Source of the DNA: Flavobacteriales bacterium ALC-1
GTDB lineage: Bacteria > Bacteroidota > Bacteroidia > Flavobacteriales > Flavobacteriaceae
Assembly: GCA_000171875.1 (NCBI GenBank)
Contig: ABHI01000002.1
Location: 124,001-188,000 of the forward strand
Direction of reading: 5' to 3'
Length of the DNA: 64,000 nucleotides
Shown: positions 137-6,502 of the stretch, in pieces
How the letters are laid out: each line of letters begins with the position of its first letter
Position numbering within the stretch: position 1 is the stretch's first letter
Notes under the pieces: model-generated
Databases searched by the model: none
What the model saw: only the letters and a program-made list of their open reading frames with translations
What the model was told of the DNA's origin: nothing
Made by a program: the position numbers and the translations under genes

Positions 137-1237
137 TTATTTTCCAGAGAAAATCTCCTTTAATTGTGTTACCATATTTCCATTACCTGAAACGGTGATC
201 TCGCCAATTTTATCAGCGATTTTTTCCACATATTCCATCTCTTTTAGCTTGTACAGCATGTCATTCTCTTCCATCAACTTTGCCGTATTTAGCAAGCTAC
301 GAGTAGAAGCTGTTTCTTCACGTCTCATAATAACATTAGCCTGTGCTTTCTTTTGTGCAACTAAAACCTGGTTCATAATCTCTTTCATTTCTCCGGTTAA
401 AATCACATCTCTAATACCGCAGTTTAAAACGGTTACCCCTAATTTAGACGCACTTGTTTTTACATCTTCAAATACCGCTTCTGCAATATTTTCCTTACGT
501 TCTAAAAGCTCATCTAAAGTGTAAGCACCAACATATGCACGCAATACTAATTGCATTGTAATGTATAATTGCTTTTCGTAATCCTTGTTATCCAAAAGTG
601 CTTTTTCAACGTCTGTAACTTTGTACTGTGTGTAAAAGTTAATACGGATTGCTGCTTTATCTTTAGTTAACAATTCTTGTCCGGCAATTTCTAATTGTAG
701 CTGACGCAAATCTGCCTTTGCAATTTTAATAGTTGTGTCATTTCTCCAGAAACGGTATGTACCACCTTCTAGAGTTTTTGTATATACATCATTGACTAAA
801 AGCACCGCTTTTTCGTAAACTGCAACCTCAAATGTTCTGATGTATTTGTTCACTTCATAATTGCTAAACAAAGATTTGTCAAAGCTTTCTGTAATATAGA
901 TTTTACTTAAATCTACTTTTACATATTCACGTTCAATTAGTCCTTTCCAGTGCACATAACGACCAGCGTTAAGAACCGTTTTAAAATTACCTTTTTCATA
1001 TAGTAAAACTAATTCTCCATCCTTTATTTCTAGCACGTCTAGCATAGCTGATAAAACCTCATCTTTTAGTAAGATTTCTAAGGCTATTGGTGCTACAAAA
1101 CTAGTTCCAAGATCGTATAAAGCTACACGTTCGTAAAACCCTATCCAGTGAATACCTTGAGTAATTACGCGAACGTAATCACCTCTTTTGAATACTAAAC
1201 CTACTTTTCCAACATTAATTCTTACTCGTTTCATCAT
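137..1237 (-). CDS. Slipin/SPFH (Band 7) domain protein
   Basis: A 366-residue protein with the slipin pattern: an N-terminal beta-rich segment, a central Band 7 (SPFH) core at about 95-300 (including KADLRQLQLEIAGQELLTKD and the helical region after AQKKAQANVIMRREE), and a helical C-terminus that would support oligomerisation. No transmembrane helix or signal peptide is evident, unlike most bacterial SPFH proteins. It is the last gene of the minus-strand locus that starts near 5.5 kb with leader ORFs, a TPR gene and a tRNA array. The start is one of two adjacent ATGs (1237 or 1234). From recollection, slipins recur near RNA-repair and tRNA-like genes in other bacteria; that link is established knowledge only in part, and its role here is inference. 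Confidence 0.85.
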   Translation of the reverse strand: MMKRVRINVGKVGLVFKRGDYVRVITQGIHWIGFYERVALYDLGTSFVAPIALEILLKDEVLSAMLDVLEIKDGELVLLYEKGNFKTVLNAGRYVHWKGLIEREYVKVDLSKIYITESFDKSLFSNYEVNKYIRTFEVAVYEKAVLLVNDVYTKTLEGGTYRFWRNDTTIKIAKADLRQLQLEIAGQELLTKDKAAIRINFYTQYKVTDVEKALLDNKDYEKQLYITMQLVLRAYVGAYTLDELLERKENIAEAVFEDVKTSASKLGVTVLNCGIRDVILTGEMKEIMNQVLVAQKKAQANVIMRREETASTRSLLNTAKLMEENDMLYKLKEMEYVEKIADKIGEITVSGNGNMVTQLKEIFSGK

Positions 1238-2367: not shown

Positions 2368-2442
2368 CTGTATGAAAAATACAGTGCTCTACCAGTTGAA
2401 CTATATCCCCTTTTCGGTTGAGATACTAGGAATCGAACCTAG
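2368..2442 (-). ncRNA. Permuted tRNA-Lys(TTT)-like unit embedded in structured RNA
   Basis: On the minus strand the T arm CTAGG-TTCGATT-CCTAG (2426-2442) and acceptor strand TATCTCA (2419-2425, discriminator A at 2418) are followed after 7 nt by acceptor strand GGGGATA (2404-2410), the D arm (2386-2401) and anticodon arm CTGTA-TTTTTCA-TACAG (2368-2384, anticodon TTT). The acceptor strands pair at 6 of 7 positions including one G-U; the 1-72 pair is mismatched. C37 after the anticodon is unusual for tRNA-Lys. Confidence 0.45.
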
Positions 2443-2848
2443 ACTTCAAAACTTTGACCTAGGAGAAGGGCTTCGAAAATGGCTTCGTAGATTTTTGCCT
2501 ACAAAATACCAACCTTCTCCTTGTGTGTTTCCCAACACACGGTAAGTTAAGCTACCGAACCATTTCCTGTCGGGTAACTTTAATACTGCAATCAGCTCCG
2601 CTAGGTTGGATAACCTATACGTAACCTGTTACTACAACTTTTTCTTTTGATGTCTCCATCTCAAGCCTACTCAAAAAGCATTGGCTATAAATCCTTAATA
2701 TGCTTCAACGGTTGTCCCTAGCAGATAATGATTTATGTTAATTGCTTGCTTACCTGCACTATTTTCTAATGAAAACAGTCTCCACTTGCAGTGTCTGCAA
2801 ACAGATTTATCCTTGTTACCAAGTTTATCTAAGGACAATAAGCTGCCC

Positions 2849-2889: not shown

Positions 2890-2939
2890 GTTATGAAACT
2901 CAATAATTGAATTTCATAAGATTTCAATGAACGTTATTG

Positions 2940-3012
2940 TGGAATAGACAGGATTCGAACCTATATCGCCAGATCTTCAATCTGGTGCATTGACCAACTT
3001 TGCTACTATTCC
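2940..3012 (-). tRNA. tRNA-Phe(GAA)
   Basis: Acceptor GGAATAG/CTATTCC, anticodon arm CCAGA-TTGAAGA-TCTGG, T arm ATAGG-TTCGAAT-CCTGT, discriminator A73 as expected for Phe. CCA is not encoded; the trailer is CAA. It is the last conventional member of the array. Confidence 0.9.
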
Positions 3013-3016
3013 GTTA

Positions 3017-3086
3017 AGTATCTATCAAGGGTCGAACTTGATCCTAGAGGATATATCTCTCGTGCGAGCCGTTACACTATAGACAC
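3017..3086 (-). tRNA. Degenerate tRNA, anticodon uncertain (ATA or TAT)
   Basis: The acceptor GTGTCTA/TAGATAC and T arm TCAAG-TTCGACC-CTTGA are good, and the D arm (GTG-TAACGGCTCG-CAC) resembles that of the neighbouring Arg tRNA. The anticodon arm is poor: only AGAG/CTCT pairs, with loop ATATATC, so the anticodon reads ATA with U33 in place, or TAT if shifted. The identity cannot be given by eye. Confidence 0.6.
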
Positions 3087-3091
3087 TTTTT

Positions 3092-3164
3092 GGGTGACTT
3101 CGGGATTCGAACCCTATTCTTCTCATTCACAGCGAGGCGTTTTACCACATAAACTAAAGACACC
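3092..3164 (-). tRNA. tRNA-His(GTG)
   Basis: The anticodon loop is CTGTGAA and the discriminator is C73, as expected for bacterial His. The acceptor GGTGTCT/AGTCACC has one mismatch, and the T and anticodon stems each have a mismatch. The base before G1 is T, so the usual G-1 identity element is not encoded. It looks partly degenerate. Confidence 0.8.
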
Positions 3165-3171
3165 ATTTTTG

Positions 3172-3242
3172 ATAATCTGAATGGATTTGAACCATTACCT
3201 CAAGAGTCAAAGTCTTGAATGCTGCCATTACACCACAGATTA
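3172..3242 (-). tRNA. tRNA-Gln(TTG)
   Basis: Acceptor TAATCTG/CAGATTA, anticodon arm CAAGA-CTTTGAC-TCTTG, T arm AATGG-TTCAAAT-CCATT, all fully paired. Discriminator T73; the trailer is CAA rather than CCA. Confidence 0.9.
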
Positions 3243-3247
3243 TTATT

Positions 3248-3320
3248 GTAAGCCTATAGGATTCAAACCCATACTCCAAGGTTCGTAACCTTGCGTGCTA
3301 TCCGTTACACCATAAGCTTA
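3248..3320 (-). tRNA. tRNA-Arg(ACG)
   Basis: Acceptor TAAGCTT/AGGCTTA (one U-G), anticodon arm CAAGG-TTACGAA-CCTTG, T arm ATGGG-TTTGAAT-CCTAT. A34 would need deamination to inosine by TadA to read all CGN codons. Discriminator C73 is unusual for Arg. Confidence 0.88.
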
Positions 3321-3324
3321 TTTG

Positions 3325-3398
3325 TACTCCACCCAAGATTCGAACTTGGACTTTACAGGGCTTAAACCTGTTGCCTCTCCCATTTGGGCTAGTGGAGC
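3325..3398 (-). tRNA. tRNA-Leu(TAA) with short variable loop
   Basis: Anticodon arm ACAGG-TTTAAGC-CCTGT, T arm CCAAG-TTCGAAT-CTTGG, acceptor GCTCCAC/GTGGAGT with a G1-U72 wobble, A73. Bacterial Leu tRNAs normally carry a long variable arm; this one has a short loop (AAAGT), so its charging by LeuRS is uncertain. Confidence 0.85.
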
Positions 3399-3402
3399 AT
3401 AG

Positions 3403-3475
3403 TACAGGAAGAGAGATTCGAACTCTCAGTTTCTCGATTCTAAGTCGAGTGCGTTTGCCATTTCGCCATTCCTGC
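3403..3475 (-). tRNA. tRNA-Leu(TAG) with short variable loop
   Basis: Anticodon arm CTCGA-CTTAGAA-TCGAG, T arm GAGAG-TTCGAAT-CTCTC, acceptor GCAGGAA/TTCCTGT (G1-U72), A73. The D arm (GGCGAAATGGCAAACGC) is of the Leu type, yet the long variable arm expected for Leu is replaced by five bases. Confidence 0.85.
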
Positions 3476-3480
3476 AATTG

Positions 3481-3552
3481 TTGAGGTACTAGGATTTGAA
3501 CCTAGGACTTTCGTCTTATCAGAACGATGCTCTACCACTGAGCTACACCTCA
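3481..3552 (-). tRNA. tRNA-Ile(GAT)
   Basis: Acceptor TGAGGTG/TACCTCA (one G-U), anticodon arm TCGTT-CTGATAA-GACGA, T arm CTAGG-TTCAAAT-CCTAG, A73; trailer CAA. The acceptor stem is nearly the same as in the neighbouring Lys, Val and Met genes, suggesting expansion by duplication and anticodon change. Confidence 0.9.
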
Positions 3553-3567
3553 TTAATTAATGTTTTG

Positions 3568-3640
3568 TTGAGGTATTAGGACTTGAACCTAAATCACCCG
3601 AGTTAAAAGCTCGGTGCTTTAACAATTAAGCTACACCTCA
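3568..3640 (-). tRNA. tRNA-Lys(TTT)
   Basis: Acceptor TGAGGTG/TACCTCA, anticodon arm CCGAG-CTTTTAA-CTCGG, T arm TTAGG-TTCAAGT-CCTAA, A73; trailer CAA. Confidence 0.9.
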
Positions 3641-3648
3641 AAATATAG

Positions 3649-3721
3649 TTGAGATATTAGGAGTCGAACCTAAACTTTTCGCCTTATGAGAGCGATGCTC
3701 TGCCAGTTAAGCTATATCTCA
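3649..3721 (-). tRNA. tRNA-Met(CAT)
   Basis: Acceptor TGAGATA/TATCTCA, anticodon arm TCGCT-CTCATAA-GGCGA, T arm TTAGG-TTCGACT-CCTAA, A73. It lacks the G-C triplets of initiator tRNA; an elongator Met or a lysidine-modified Ile2 cannot be told apart by eye. Confidence 0.88.
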
Positions 3722-3726
3722 ATTTG

Positions 3727-3798
3727 TTGAGGTAATAGAGATCGAACCTATGACTTTCACGATGTACGCGTGATGCTCTTCCACTGAGCTATACCTCA
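3727..3798 (-). tRNA. tRNA-Val(TAC) with G33
   Basis: Acceptor TGAGGTA/TACCTCA is perfect and the T arm ATAGG-TTCGATC-TCTAT is sound. The anticodon arm is TCACG-CGTACAT-CGTGA, which places G at position 33, where U is nearly universal. This would weaken the U-turn and decoding. A73, trailer CAA. Confidence 0.85.
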
Positions 3799-3801
3799 TT
3801 G

Positions 3802-3873
3802 TACTCCGTAAGAGAATCGAACTCTTAATTACTGATAGAAAGTCAGGCGTCTTAACCATTTGACCAACGGAGC
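3802..3873 (-). tRNA. tRNA-Glu(TTC)
   Basis: Acceptor GCTCCGT/ACGGAGT with a G1-U72 wobble, anticodon arm CCTGA-CTTTCTA-TCAGT (outer pair mismatched), T arm AAGAG-TTCGATT-CTCTT, A73; trailer CAA. Confidence 0.87.
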
Positions 3874-3880
3874 ATTTCCG

Positions 3881-3953
3881 CAGTACCGACGAGATTCGAA
3901 CTCGCAACTTCTCGGGAGACAACCGAGCACTCTAACCATTGAGCTACGATACT
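3881..3953 (-). tRNA. tRNA-Asp(GTC)
   Basis: Acceptor AGTATCG/CGGTACT, anticodon arm CTCGG-TTGTCTC-CCGAG, T arm GCGAG-TTCGAAT-CTCGT, discriminator G73 as expected for Asp. T at position 37 is unusual. Confidence 0.88.
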
Positions 3954-3958
3954 ATTTG

Positions 3959-4040
3959 TGGGAATCATAGGATTCGAACCTATTCAGCCAAGGCATCAGT
4001 TTTACAGACTGACTCCACTCTCCAACTTGGACGTATTCCC
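3959..4040 (-). tRNA. tRNA-Tyr(GTA)
   Basis: The anticodon arm is TCAGT-CTGTAAA-ACTGA, followed by a long variable arm (about 12 nt) typical of bacterial Tyr, T arm ATAGG-TTCGAAT-CCTAT, and acceptor GGGAAT/ATTCCC (sixth pair good, seventh mismatched). A73. At 82 nt it is the only class II member of the array. Confidence 0.9.
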
Positions 4041-4051
4041 TTACTAATTTG

Positions 4052-4124
4052 AGACAAGGATGAGGATCGAACTCATAAAAAACAGAGTTGCAGTCTGTTG
4101 CCTTAACCATTCAGCCACCTTGTC
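4052..4124 (-). tRNA. tRNA-Cys(GCA)
   Basis: Acceptor GACAAGG/CCTTGTC, anticodon arm ACAGA-CTGCAAC-TCTGT, T arm ATGAG-TTCGATC-CTCAT, discriminator U73, the main Cys identity element. It starts only 3 nt after tRNA-Asn. Confidence 0.9.
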
Positions 4125-4127
4125 TTG

Positions 4128-4199
4128 CGATATTGGAAAGACTCGAACTTTCAACCTAGTGCTTAACAGGCACTTGCTCTACCATTGAGCTACAATATC
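4128..4199 (-). tRNA. tRNA-Asn(GTT)
   Basis: First gene of the array. Acceptor GATATTG/CAATATC, anticodon arm AGTGC-CTGTTAA-GCACT, T arm GAAAG-TTCGAGT-CTTTC, discriminator G73 as for bacterial Asn. The AU-rich acceptor is unlike the GC-rich acceptor usual for housekeeping tRNA-Asn, so it is probably an extra gene. Confidence 0.9.
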
Positions 4200-4258: not shown

Positions 4259-4840
4259 TTACAATAGATTATTAAGTCGATTTTGAAACCACTTTTTTGG
4301 TTCAGCTTCAACTTCTTTTTTAGCCTGATTTTCTATGATTCTATTTTCATTAGCTTGAATCTTTTTTTTCTTCTTTACTCGAGATAAAATGTCATCAACA
4401 TAACTGATGAAATCATTGTTCAGTCCTAATTGTTTTGCATCTTTTAAAGCCTTCTCTGCTTCAACAAACAATGTCATGCTTTCATAAAGTTGACCTTGTG
4501 CTAAAGCAACACCAGCTCGATCTATCCCTTTGACGGTTTTAGCAAAATCAATTAAACGTTGTGCTTCATTGTAATCGTGATTATTAATTAACAACCTGAT
4601 GTAATCTGGATATACATCTGGCATATCCAATCTACTCGCTAAAGCCCTTTCGAAATAGCTTTTAGCTGTTTCATTATCACCCAATTGTTCATAGTGTACT
4701 TTCGCCATTAAATGCAAGGCTTTTACATTTTCTGGGTCGTAAGACAACGCGTAATTTAATGCCTCTACTGCTTTTTCTAATTCCCAAGGATAGGCTTCCA
4801 TCGCTTTGAACAAATAGCTGTTATGTAAATTATTTTCCAT
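4259..4840 (-). CDS. TPR-repeat protein
   Basis: A 193-residue soluble protein. Helical TPR-like pairs cover about residues 15-135 (for instance ALNYALSYDPENVKALHLMA and AKSYFERALASRLDMPDVYP), followed by a lysine-rich helix (VKKKKKIQANENR) and an acidic/Lys tail. No signal peptide is visible. I chose the ATG at 4840; a longer frame begins with TTG at 4855. The gene lies between the second leader terminator and the 16-tRNA array and reads in the same direction, so it is probably co-transcribed with the array and the slipin gene. The basic tail would fit RNA contact, but that is inference. Confidence 0.85.
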   Translation of the reverse strand: MENNLHNSYLFKAMEAYPWELEKAVEALNYALSYDPENVKALHLMAKVHYEQLGDNETAKSYFERALASRLDMPDVYPDYIRLLINNHDYNEAQRLIDFAKTVKGIDRAGVALAQGQLYESMTLFVEAEKALKDAKQLGLNNDFISYVDDILSRVKKKKKIQANENRIIENQAKKEVEAEPKKWFQNRLNNLL

Positions 4841-4939
4841 GATAACTTTATTCAATAGTTCGTTACTGTTTTAAATGCAACACGTGATGTGATGCTCTTA
4901 AAACTGTTCAGATTTATGTACTCTTAAATTTTTTGAAAT

Positions 4940-4972
4940 AAAAAATCCGAAACAGTTTGTTTGCTTCGGATT
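4940..4972 (-). terminator. Leader terminator T2 (candidate attenuator)
   Basis: On the minus strand AATCCGAAGC and GTTTCGGATT form a 10-bp stem with a 9-nt loop, followed by six T residues. It lies after the 25-codon leader ORF and before the TPR gene. Its 5' arm CCGAAGC (4969-4963) is fully complementary to GCTTCGG inside the leader ORF (5012-5006), giving a 7-bp alternative antiterminator. Confidence 0.85.
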
Positions 4973-4993
4973 CTTCTCTGGGAAATAAATTAT

Positions 4994-5071
4994 CTACAGA
5001 AAATACCGAAGCCTTATAAATGACTCTAAGTCACTTAGTAAATTTTGAAATGCTACAATATGTTTTAGCAT
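4994..5071 (-). CDS. Leader peptide 2 (25 aa) before the TPR/tRNA array
   Basis: A 25-codon ORF starting at ATG 5071 and ending with TAG at 4996-4994, about 50 nt after a good promoter and 22 nt before terminator T2. It begins MLKHIVAF and ends RLRYFL. Its residue types are Met, Leu, Lys, His, Ile, Val, Ala, Phe, Gln, Asn, Ser, Asp, Glu, Arg and Tyr; 13 of these 15 have a tRNA in the downstream array, whose only absent member is Cys. It uses scarce codons (CTA, CTG, AGG, CGG, ATA). The antiterminator segment spans codons 20-22. This is the layout of a ribosome-controlled attenuation leader; translation is not proven. Confidence 0.6.
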   Translation of the reverse strand: MLKHIVAFQNLLSDLESFIRLRYFL

Positions 5072-5125
5072 GGCTTCTTATTTTGTTATTAATTATGTTA
5101 TTGCGAATTGTTTAATTCTGCGATG

Positions 5126-5156
5126 CAAAGATGGAAACTAATTTTAAAAAAACAAA
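5126..5156 (-). promoter_or_regulatory. Promoter P2 for leader 2, TPR gene and tRNA array
   Basis: Minus-strand TTTG (5156-5153), 19-nt spacer and CATCTTTG (5133-5126) match the Bacteroidetes -33/-7 pattern (TAnnTTTG) with one mismatch. Transcription would begin near 5119. Confidence 0.7.
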
Positions 5157-5340
5157 TAAAATTTAAATTTATTTTATTGATTATCAATTAGTTACATTAT
5201 TTTTGAGACATAACAATTCTTGTCCGCATTATGCAGATCCTAGAAGGTTTTTGGCAAGCGTCTGTCTCCCAATTGCTTAGTCTTCAATACGTGTTATTTT
5301 ATTTTTTAAAGTCTAGTTTCAAATTCTTTTAAATTTTTTC
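5157..5340 (-). other. AT-rich spacer between terminator T1 and promoter P2
   Basis: Only very short frames (10 codons or fewer) are present. Readthrough of T1 would carry transcription across this stretch into leader 2, so the two leaders could act in series. No other feature recognised. Confidence 0.4.
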
Positions 5341-5369
5341 ATAAAAAAAGCGTCCAATTTCTTGGACGC
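5341..5369 (-). terminator. Leader terminator T1
   Basis: Minus-strand GCGTCCAA-GAAA-TTGGACGC (GNRA-type loop) is followed by seven T residues. It lies 40 nt after the stop of the 38-codon ORF. Its 5' arm GGCGTCC (5370-5364) can pair with GGACGTT inside that ORF (5438-5432) through five Watson-Crick and two G-U pairs. Confidence 0.88.
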
Positions 5370-5408
5370 CTATACTATTTATAATTTTTGTGCTTAAATC
5401 ATCTGTTA

Positions 5409-5525
5409 TTAATGATTAAAAATAGATACATAACGTCCTTGTCGTTGAAATAATTCAATATTTCCACGATAATCCCACTGACACATCAGTGATTTAGGTG
5501 CTCTATGTACTATTGTTTTGATCAT
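5409..5525 (-). CDS. Leader peptide 1: 38-aa ORF containing all 20 amino acids
   Basis: ATG at 5525, TAA at 5411-5409. The peptide starts MIKTIVHRAP, continues through a CQWDYRGN segment at residues 15-22 and ends SIFNH. By residue 26 every one of the 20 amino acids has been used, with only six repeats (Ile twice more; Lys, Arg, Met and Leu once more). The candidate antiterminator segment follows at codons 30-32. It has its own promoter so close that the mRNA would be almost leaderless, and its own terminator. The start resembles leader 2 (M-I/L-K-x-I-V). It may be a sensor leader peptide or a conserved small protein; nothing in it suggests an enzyme or membrane role. Confidence 0.6.
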   Translation of the reverse strand: MIKTIVHRAPKSLMCQWDYRGNIELFQRQGRYVSIFNH

Positions 5526-5533
5526 TAGTGGTG

Positions 5534-5566
5534 CAAATATGATAAATTCTTCAATTAAAACCCAAA
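5534..5566 (-). promoter_or_regulatory. Promoter P1 for leader peptide 1
   Basis: Minus-strand TTTG (5566-5563), 21-nt spacer and CATATTTG (5541-5534), one mismatch from TAnnTTTG. The ATG lies only 8 nt after the -7 box, so the transcript would be leaderless or nearly so. Confidence 0.65.
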
Positions 5567-5659
5567 TATTTAAGTAATTATGTTTCTCTCAAAATTCATT
5601 ATTCATTAAAACTTTACCTCTTTTTGTAATGTTTATTGGACTATATAGACTTAGGTGTT

Positions 5660-6502
5660 ATGATTTACAATTTCAAAGAATTTTCTACCAACGCTATATT
5701 TAATATTGGCAATGAAACAAATTTAAAATCGTTTAGTAAAGCTAAGCAAACTGAATTATACACTTTTATTTGGGCAAATTTTGAAGCTATTGAAATCATT
5801 ATAGATAGTATTCCTTTTACTATTGAACCTCATAGTATTTTAGCTTTAACTCCTATTCAATATTTACAATATATAAAAGGAGGTGATGCCATTATTTATC
5901 AATTTAATAGAGAATTTTATTGTATTAAAGATCACGACCATGAAGTGAGTTGTGTAGGTATTCTATTTTTTGGTAATACTAATATTCCAGTTATTCATTT
6001 AGATAAAAAAGAGCAACAAAAATTTAAAACCCTCCATGAAGTTTTTATTGATGAATTAGAAACCGAAGATAACATCCAAGCCGAAATGCTTAGAATGTTA
6101 ATGGGAAGATTTATTATAAAAAGTACACGCCTATTAAAGGCTAAAGAGGGTATTGTTGAAACACCTAAGAGCACCAAAGTAGATTTGTTACGAGAATTTA
6201 ACTTCTTGGTAGAACAACATTTTAAAAAAGAGCATAGTGTTTCTTTTTATGCAGATATGTTGTTTCGTTCGCCTAAAACCTTATCCAATAATTTTGCTAA
6301 ACTTAATAGAAGTCCATTGCAAATTATACATGAACGAGTTGTCCTAGAAGCAAAACGTTTATTAACGTATTCAGATAAAACAGCAAAAGAAATTGCATAT
6401 GAAATTGGTTTTGATGATGCATCACACTTAAGCCGATTGTTTAAAAAGTATACGTCTCAGTCACCATCTGACTATAAAAAAGGTCTAAAAACTATAGGTT
6501 AG
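5660..6502 (+). CDS. AraC-family transcriptional regulator
   Basis: A 280-residue regulator. The N-terminal about 150 residues form a cupin-like sensing domain (MIYNFKEFSTNAIFNI at the start). The C-terminal about 100 residues carry the two AraC helix-turn-helix units: SVSFYADMLFRSPKTLSNNF and the diagnostic TAKEIAYEIGFDDASHLSRL followed by FKKYTSQSPSDYKK. I chose ATG 5660; a frame opening with TTG at 5636 adds eight residues. It sits at the head of a region with three identical-architecture operator/promoter copies (6502, 6749, 9575), whose most likely binder is this protein. The inducer is unknown. Confidence 0.92.
   Translation: MIYNFKEFSTNAIFNIGNETNLKSFSKAKQTELYTFIWANFEAIEIIIDSIPFTIEPHSILALTPIQYLQYIKGGDAIIYQFNREFYCIKDHDHEVSCVGILFFGNTNIPVIHLDKKEQQKFKTLHEVFIDELETEDNIQAEMLRMLMGRFIIKSTRLLKAKEGIVETPKSTKVDLLREFNFLVEQHFKKEHSVSFYADMLFRSPKTLSNNFAKLNRSPLQIIHERVVLEAKRLLTYSDKTAKEIAYEIGFDDASHLSRLFKKYTSQSPSDYKKGLKTIG

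Follow-up and report, generated by a model that had tools for sequence, protein, structure and literature searches.

The leader region analyzed here lies in a stretch of 64,000 nucleotides from Flavobacteriales bacterium ALC-1 (contig ABHI01000002.1), which is called the window in the following; all positions refer to this window. On its minus strand, a promoter is followed by a short leader open reading frame (ORF), termed ORF1, an intrinsic terminator (T1), a second promoter, a second short frame (ORF2), a terminator T2, a gene for a TPR protein, 16 tRNA genes, and a slipin gene, an order that is common to some Flavobacteriaceae. A preliminary description of the leader had interpreted ORF1 as a general sensor responding to the loss of any charged tRNA. 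The TPR gene, the array of 16 tRNA genes and the slipin-like gene downstream of the leader had escaped it.

The leader ORF1 and its amino acid set

ORF1 (5409..5525, minus strand, read from 5525 to 5409) comprises 38 codons and encodes the peptide MIKTIVHRAPKSLMCQWDYRGNIELFQRQGRYVSIFNH. Translation confirmed the earlier statement that all 20 amino acids are represented within the first 26 residues. Promoter P1 (5534..5566, minus strand) was read from the sequence as TTTG at 5566-5563, located 29 nt upstream of CATATTTG at 5541-5534, a motif pair which we take to be of the Bacteroidetes promoter type. The ATG follows 8 nt past the last G of this motif and ORF1 is nearly leaderless, both in agreement with the preliminary description. 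T1 begins 37 nt after the stop codon, i.e., 40 nt from the first base of this codon, which reproduces the distance of 40 nt given before.

The chance of such a composition, whose calculation had been recommended, is about 1e-5: at the composition of the window, a run of 26 residues has a probability of about 7.5e-6 of containing 20 different amino acids (some 3 cases in 400,000 random draws). Not one complete segment was present among 34,969 segments of 26 residues taken from 94 ORFs of 200 aa or longer. Over 38 residues, completeness is expected in 0.19% at this composition and was found in 0.065% of real segments of that size. Among the 28 ATG-started ORFs of 36-41 aa in the window, for which ORF1 itself qualifies, one is complete.

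For a comparison with homologous loci, leaders were gathered via a profile, a sequence motif and the regions near the TPR gene, giving 52 distinct ORF1 leaders. Completeness was never a selection criterion, although the seed leader itself is complete. The distribution of the leaders is patchy. Among 397 genomes of the family, 25 have a match to profile A1 with E up to 0.01, three of which lack the leader layout; the profile also matched in 19 of 68 genomes of the genus and in two of 148 genomes of the order, namely the own genome and one weak match with internal stops. Weak matches without the leader layout were dropped (L012, L013, L015-L018, L112-L114, L116, L217-L219, and a second weak match in L118), as were L199, which is cut by a contig end, L124/L200 with a broken frame, and duplicate leaders (L136, L176, L181, L184, L228, L234, and small loci repeating them). 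In L124, the leader frame upstream of the TPR gene is broken and the terminator remains, i.e., it is a decayed copy. L158 was found after the statistics had been made and stands outside the 52, and L052, which has no terminator, is outside the pairing counts. The reading frame is open across 34-43 codons in all 52 leaders. A TTTG lies at most 22 nt from the ATG in 49 of them (exactly 8 nt in 33), and an additional TTG/TTTG 20-32 nt further up in 41. Divergent leaders, such as MNTKQIHKQPMSRFNECGDYRWAVILLSTITGRFVSNFKC in L222, show little likeness to the peptide of the window, yet are complete.

Twenty different amino acids are present in 27 of the 52 leaders, 19 in 13, 18 in eight, and fewer in four, with a mean of 19.17 at a mean length of 39 residues. 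By comparison, 39-residue segments of the 94 longer ORFs contain 15.45 different amino acids on average and are complete in 0.09%, and nucleotide-shuffled leader ORFs contain 16.5 and are complete in 0.7%, 50 of the 52 leaders exceeding their own shuffled mean. Because related leaders resemble each other, further null models were applied. Column-permuted alignments were complete in 8% and two-leader chimeras in 29%, and the observed mean was reached in 0 of 300 and 2 of 300 replicates, respectively. With one leader per 60%-identity cluster (14 leaders), the observed mean was 18.43, compared to 17.26 for column-permuted (0/300) and 17.92 for chimeric sets (12/300). With one leader per 50%-identity cluster (six leaders), 8 of 300 permuted and 65 of 300 chimeric sets reached the observed mean, so that the power of the test is gone at this level. 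Finally, evolution with independent sites was simulated on the midpoint-rooted tree of the leaders under five settings, one of which matches the observed mean identity (0.39). The simulated means were 17.7-17.9 with 5-7% complete leaders, compared to 52% observed, and 0 of 1000 simulations per setting reached the observed values.

The positions of individual residues differ between leaders. Trp occurs once in 40 leaders, twice in none, and is absent from 12, and its location in the leader alignment varies between residues 17, 11, 21/22, 25, and 27. Leaders with QCDY in place of QWDY may carry Trp elsewhere, at residue 11 (APWSL), 21 (DYRWI), or 27 (L059). L120 and L121 contain a Pro in DYPGN and none at its usual place, and in L125 Cys and Val are absent at their usual sites and both present in the tail. 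The question raised in the preliminary description, whether the order of the residues drifts but their set is retained, is answered in the affirmative by the excess of complete and nearly complete leaders over the permuted, chimeric, and tree nulls; the contrary outcome it had named, a peptide strictly conserved in sequence but lacking the 20-residue property, was not seen among the leaders.

Pairing between ORF1 and the terminator T1

T1 (5342..5371, minus strand) is an intrinsic terminator with a T-run, identified by a terminator scan and by the consensus fold of 39 leaders. Its stem spans 5371-5348, and it was the sole intrinsic terminator found by the simple scan in 4800-5700. The candidate antiterminator consists of a 5′ strand within ORF1 (5419..5438, minus strand; GGACGTTATGTATCTATTTT, codons 30-36) and a 3′ strand (5364..5380, minus strand; AAATAGTATAGGCGTCC) that overlaps the 5′ arm of T1. 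The seven pairs between GGACGTT and GGCGTCC proposed before, two of them G-U, were recovered. They form the outer part of a longer helix with 16 predicted pairs in the window, since the pairing extends inward, which had been overlooked. In the relatives of the window, the inner pairing joins TGTA.CTATTT in the last codons to AAATAG.TACA before T1.

This pairing is kept across the family. In 49 of 51 leaders (all except L106 and L127), the helix between GGACGTT, or a variant of it, and the 5′ arm of T1 scores 14 or more; codon-shuffled leaders reach this score in 8.9 of 51 cases on average. The third pair of the outer helix is G-C in two of 51 leaders (L137, L229) vs. A-U in 42. On average, the predicted antiterminator has 17.8 pairs and an energy of -16.4 kcal/mol vs. 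-14.3 kcal/mol for T1, means that include L060, whose strand was mis-set, and it is predicted to be stabler than T1 in 38 of 49 leaders. From the start of the first to the end of the second strand it spans 63-77 nt. Of 49 leaders, 28 have the start of the ORF1 segment in frame 0, 18 have it in frame 1, and three in frame 2; the segment is therefore kept as nucleic acid.

The preliminary description had also asked for covariation between the ORF segment and the terminator arm, and this was found. When strands were swapped between 16 clusters, one of which holds 23 leaders, own strands outpaired swapped ones in 43 of 51 leaders (34 of 51 for the inner part alone), and 1 of 2000 cluster-level permutations reached the observed mean energy, for the whole helix and the inner part alike. 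Covariation was scored in alignment A5, which contains 39 of the 51 terminator-bearing leaders; eight KQ-type leaders, L106, L137, L144, and L163 were omitted because they are poorly alignable. Hairpin A (see below) and the antiterminator together were paired in 82.7% of the alignment cells, compared to 30-47% with the partners slid. Their covariation score was 0.130 vs. 0.095 ± 0.007 in shuffles and was reached by 0 of 500 shuffles, and nine pairs were changed on both sides vs. 5.4 in shuffles (2/500), with slid versions giving up to 7. The antiterminator and T1 are predicted to be mutually exclusive, as conserved and co-varying structures.

Two hairpins precede the antiterminator strand within ORF1. 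Hairpin A (5476..5491, minus strand; CACTG-N6-CAGTG, codons 12-17) is paired in 98.5% of the cells of the 39 sequences and shows changes on both sides at two of its five pairs; it is possibly a pause hairpin for RNA polymerase. Hairpin B (5442..5469, minus strand; TCGT..ACGA) is a predicted fold located immediately before the antiterminator strand, and hairpins resembling it were noticed by eye among 17 folds.

If a ribosome is taken to cover 15 nt upstream of the P site, one located at the ORF1 stop codon is predicted to mask a mean of 9.4 of the approximately 18 antiterminator pairs. The preliminary description had conceded as a weak point that such a ribosome would cover the pairing segment only partly. 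This objection largely falls, because the predicted antiterminator extends to the end of the ORF. Judged from its sequence, ORF1 would have the make-up of an attenuator leader, i.e., a short ORF with promoter-like motifs and constrained codons, whose translation is predicted.

Downstream genes and the second stage

Downstream context was counted at 48 loci that are long enough (the 52 minus four short ones). Same-strand tRNA genes lie downstream of the leader at 39 of these, the largest number being 21 tRNAs, for 18 amino acids, in L220, and a relative of slipin at 31. At the TPR loci (L117-L186), at least two tRNAs are present in 18 of 30 cases with ORF1 upstream vs. eight of 40 without, and of these eight at least L158 and L178 have a KQ-type leader behind the TPR gene. 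In 29 arrays of at least five tRNAs, the commonest are those for Asp, Leu, Arg, Glu, Tyr, Phe, Lys, and Gln. A protein with an RF-1 domain according to Pfam, presumably PrfH, is encoded upstream of the leader at eight of the 48 loci. RtcB was confirmed by Pfam in L222 and L220 (two of ten neighboring proteins tested), and further neighbors in L222 are exoribonuclease-like and ribonuclease-H-like proteins. RtcB had no match in the window's own genome and PrfH none in the first 20 kb of the window.

In the window, the TPR protein (4259..4840, minus strand, 193 aa; TPR_19, E 1.3e-8) has its closest match, with 97%, in an uncultured Winogradskyella, and no carrier of the gene was found in the viral contigs to which the search for viruses was confined. 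The array of 16 tRNA genes (2939..4199, minus strand) was located by a tRNA search. Fifteen of the 16 could be compared and share 49-71% identity with the closest of the recovered housekeeping tRNAs that carry the same amino acid, and 14 of the 16 anticodons also occur among the 29 tRNAs recovered outside the array; the array tRNAs are thus both spare and divergent. The last gene encodes a slipin-like SPFH/band-7 protein (137..1237, minus strand, 366 aa; PF01145, E 4.8e-30).

Between T1 and the operon lies a second stage. A conserved element (5220..5292, minus strand; GCAATTGGGAGACAGAC..TTGCC and TCTGC..GCGGACA), whose motifs were recognized by eye in other genera, had no Rfam match over the gathering threshold, and a scan of this stretch with E up to 5 gave none either. 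It is also present at L226 3700-3860 and L220 3900-4060; its GAGACAGAC and GGACAG motifs are followed by a TTGATTATCAATAAATTAA-like stretch before the second promoter. This promoter, P2 (5126..5156, minus strand), has a TTTG 27 nt before that of CATCTTTG and appears similar by eye in other genera. ORF2 (4994..5071, minus strand) comprises 25 codons with GCTTCGG near its end and 15 different amino acids, i.e., an incomplete set. The 5′ arm of T2 (4940..4971, minus strand; read from the sequence), CCGAAGC, is complementary to this GCTTCGG; T2 was missed by the simple scan because its loop is longer. The pattern of ORF2 and T2 with complementary arms was found in 73 locus records, some from one genome, with an ORF2 of about 25 codons and GCTTCG near the stop. 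P2-ORF2-T2 resembles a second gate built along similar lines, and ORF2-T2 would represent a simpler attenuator-like unit lacking the 20-residue property. The possibility that ORF2 at TPR-type loci is another leader for all 20 amino acids was not supported: in about 25 residues, ORF2 averages 15.0 different amino acids at the 34 loci that have ORF1 and 14.8 at the 39 that lack it. These means are well short of a full set, though somewhat higher than the 13.1-13.3 of ordinary segments of 25-26 residues. Long ORF2s of 39 aa contain 18 (L123), 19 (L126), and 18 (L129) different amino acids. At six TPR loci that have no ORF1 (L133, L134, L135, L138, L139, L140), T1 stands right behind another upstream gene; these loci have retained the middle element together with P2, ORF2, and T2.

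At 13 loci (KQ-type and a few others), a second leader of another kind was found, termed ORF2′. In 12 of these, the leader lies nearer to the array and is followed by ORF2′ with a terminator of its own; L163 is a more divergent case. ORF2′ was picked by promoter, pairing score, and length, composition not being used, and its peptides gave no blastp match to ORF1 peptides better than E 0.33. For L058, the start chosen by the script gives 54 aa with 17 different residues, and a shorter start chosen by hand was used (37 aa, 16 different). No promoter was found by pattern for ORF2′ in four loci (L224, L227, L230, L231). In most of the 13 loci, its best helix with the terminator arm is less strong than that of ORF1 (scores 9-16.5). 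The ORF2′ peptides contain a mean of 18.2 different residues in about 41, one being complete, compared to a mean of 15.6 for 40-residue segments, 9.8% of which reach 18. ORF1 and ORF2′ are jointly complete in nine of the 13 loci, in five of which ORF1 alone suffices.

Further observations concern the remainder of the locus. Across the window, tRNAs were the only Rfam matches over gathering, and T1 as part of a known riboswitch, Rfam leader, or T-box was therefore dismissed; a weak Phe_leader match over T1 scored 24.1 bits vs. a gathering threshold of 55. Between the array and slipin, 1238-2938 is a long non-coding stretch with the motif TCAAGCTGGTCTTGTTGGGTGTTTCGGTAT..ACAACTAGACTTGAAGG, which is present in L059, too, and with no Rfam match at gathering except one tRNA. 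Within it, 1787-1892 and 2369-2462 (minus strand) are tRNA-like with the 3′ half before the 5′ half, a layout resembling circularly permuted tRNA genes, with one acceptor pair each (GGGGAAG/CTTCCCC and GGGATA/TATCTC). ARAGORN called 184 of 36,150 rotated joins from 1238-2938 a tRNA, vs. 0 of 22,632 and 0 of 22,155 from two control stretches; many of the 184 calls represent the same few places, some are without a clear anticodon, and a third cluster at about 1685-1808 overlaps an ordinary tRNA.

Interpretation and comparison with known systems

With a rough probability of 0.75, these data suggest that ORF1-T1 is a ribosome-mediated transcription attenuator which responds to a lack of any aminoacyl-tRNA by inducing spare tRNAs. 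With marginally less confidence, we also think it likely that flavobacteria possess a universal aminoacyl-tRNA sensor whose leaders, some in tandem, are selected for every amino acid about once, and that the loss of any charged tRNA would induce the divergent spare tRNAs. The sensor function proposed in the preliminary description is thereby supported by sequence comparison, namely by the constraint on the set of 20, the conserved and co-evolving antiterminator, the leaderless start, and the tRNA arrays. Stalling, readthrough, array induction, and the use of the array tRNAs as replacements are inferred steps of the following scheme. Transcription would start at the ATG or immediately ahead of it. 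A ribosome, taken from the promoter spacing to be on the mRNA from this near-leaderless start, would trail RNA polymerase across about 30 codons that need every or nearly every amino acid. With all tRNAs charged and intact, it would reach the stop codon in time and cover about half of the antiterminator 5′ strand (codons 30-37), T1 would form, and transcription would end. If one aminoacyl-tRNA runs short due to starvation, synthetase inhibition, an anticodon nuclease, or ribosome damage, the ribosome would stall upstream and free the ORF1 segment, which could then pair at about 18 positions with the sequence that leads to T1 and extends into its 5′ arm, and block the terminator. RNA polymerase would then continue via the second leader and terminator stage to the TPR gene, the spare tRNAs, and slipin.

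Several observations speak against this attenuator model or restrict it. At least one amino acid is absent from 25 of the 52 leaders (Trp from 12, Thr from five, Cys from five), and the later-found L158, the 53rd leader, is without Thr and Trp. All 20 amino acids precede the antiterminator strand in only 19 of 49 leaders, and four codons earlier in six of 49, the mean numbers being 18.6 and 18.0, respectively. The ORF2′ leaders are mostly one related family, and their mean of 18.2 was judged against ordinary segments. The covariation of the inner helix is weak, and the innermost helix is paired in 58% of the cells. There is no downstream tRNA at nine of the 48 loci, and in L052 the leader is complete, yet T1, the TPR gene, and the tRNA genes are gone. 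As a tRNA for Thr occurs in none of the 29 larger arrays, the sensed set and the content of the arrays do not correspond one-to-one. With P2 located behind T1 and ahead of the operon, P1-T1 is not the sole way in, and T2, too, has to be passed; moreover, the six TPR loci named above retain T1, the middle element, and P2 but no ORF1. A last point concerns the untranslated state. Attenuators of amino acid operons combine a short leader ORF with an antiterminator and a terminator that exclude each other, and in the classical ones a protective hairpin frees the terminator if the leader is not translated. In 16 of 17 minimum-energy folds, L144 being the exception, the antiterminator strand was free of an upstream hairpin and paired with the T1 arm region instead, and an untranslated leader is therefore predicted to read through. 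The element would then report any failure of its own translation, not charging alone.

The neighborhood of the leaders might alternatively point to a general sensor of ribosome stalling by antibiotics or ribotoxins, similar to the PA5471.1 leader of P. aeruginosa, in which the amino acid content is incidental. The same structure would answer any stall, and the neighbors (slipin relatives at 31 and PrfH-like proteins at eight of 48 loci, RtcB in two of ten proteins tested) suggest translation damage. However, such a sensor predicts no selection for a complete set, which is seen in ORF1 against the permuted, chimeric, and tree nulls and in ORF2′ in comparison with ordinary segments, and we regard it as improbable. 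ORF1 could also encode a conserved microprotein or arrest peptide, with T1 as the plain terminator of its short mRNA. In favor of this, M1, H7, L13, Q16, and Y19 are invariant in 22 A1 peptides, and synonymous changes exceed the random expectation (0.28-0.41 vs. 0.19-0.20). The codons of L13 and Q16, however, fall within hairpin A, the KQ-type peptides keep the set but share little with the peptide of the window, and the C-terminal DNA is kept but read in differing frames between species, which makes this a very improbable explanation; because the end switches its frame while the DNA stays, an ordinary conserved protein was judged unlikely, too. A structured or small RNA ended by T1, with the open frame and its composition as by-products of RNA structure, would account for the nearly invariant pairing of hairpin A but is highly doubtful in view of the low means of the shuffled ORFs, which 50 of 52 leaders exceed, the frame of 34-43 codons open in every leader, and the common near-leaderless ATG (33 of 49 at 8 nt).

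If the attenuator model holds, the whole-alphabet leader is a one-molecule detector for any tRNA failure, wired to replacement tRNAs, and the locus a self-contained tRNA-insurance circuit, possibly a safeguard against anticodon nucleases from phages and from competitors. Such a leader would account for how cells might sense a tRNA destruction that is invisible in the amino acid pool, make the role of the spare tRNA array directly testable, and offer a ready-made reporter of translation stress. The leaders also point to an unusual selection, acting on the residue set of a peptide and not on the order of its residues.

To our knowledge, known attenuators each monitor one or a few amino acids. 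Among the matches listed in full-text searches of CC-licensed PubMed Central articles, no title or abstract start described a leader for all amino acids or an attenuated tRNA array. Judged from its sequence, ORF1-T1 would work like the ribosome-mediated trp/his attenuators but departs from their use of codons for a single amino acid. The trp/his systems likewise have a short leader ORF, mutually exclusive antiterminator and terminator, and a readout by ribosome position (PMC1183508). Their leaders use codons of the amino acid they control, whereas ORF1 contains nearly every one, mostly once or twice. Regulatory codons for an amino acid of the operon's own were not found in ORF1; where trp/his leaders precede genes for amino acid synthesis, tRNA genes lie downstream of ORF1-T1, and no hairpin protecting its antiterminator strand was seen in 16 of 17 minimum-energy folds.

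Other systems share single aspects of the locus. The PA5471.1 leader of armZ in Pseudomonas aeruginosa is, like ORF1, a leader ORF proposed to relay impaired or stalled ribosomes through transcriptional attenuation (PMC12057347). It differs in that ribosome-targeting drugs or impaired ribosomes induce it and that it controls an efflux-pump antirepressor, and the sections of this article considered here make no mention of an all-amino-acid composition. Genes for PrfH, RtcB, and TPR proteins have been described together (PMC6514570), and similar genes are close by at some leader loci; in the main text of that article, 'tRNA gene', 'slipin', and 'leader' occur 0 times, and the genome of the window has no RtcB match. 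The trn array of Anabaena comprises 26 spare tRNA genes that stay silent until translational stress activates them, and in the trcR mutant rtcB and a slipin-family gene are raised (PMC10272220). It resembles the window in being a spare array, which here duplicates housekeeping anticodons (14/16), but is controlled by the DNA-binding repressor TrcR, and the article, in the text considered, contains 'attenuat' and 'leader' 0 times. By analogy, and as far as these articles were covered, the nearest ideas appear to be the PA5471.1 leader, which responds to stalled ribosomes in general, and the Anabaena trn array, which keeps spare tRNAs under a repressor.
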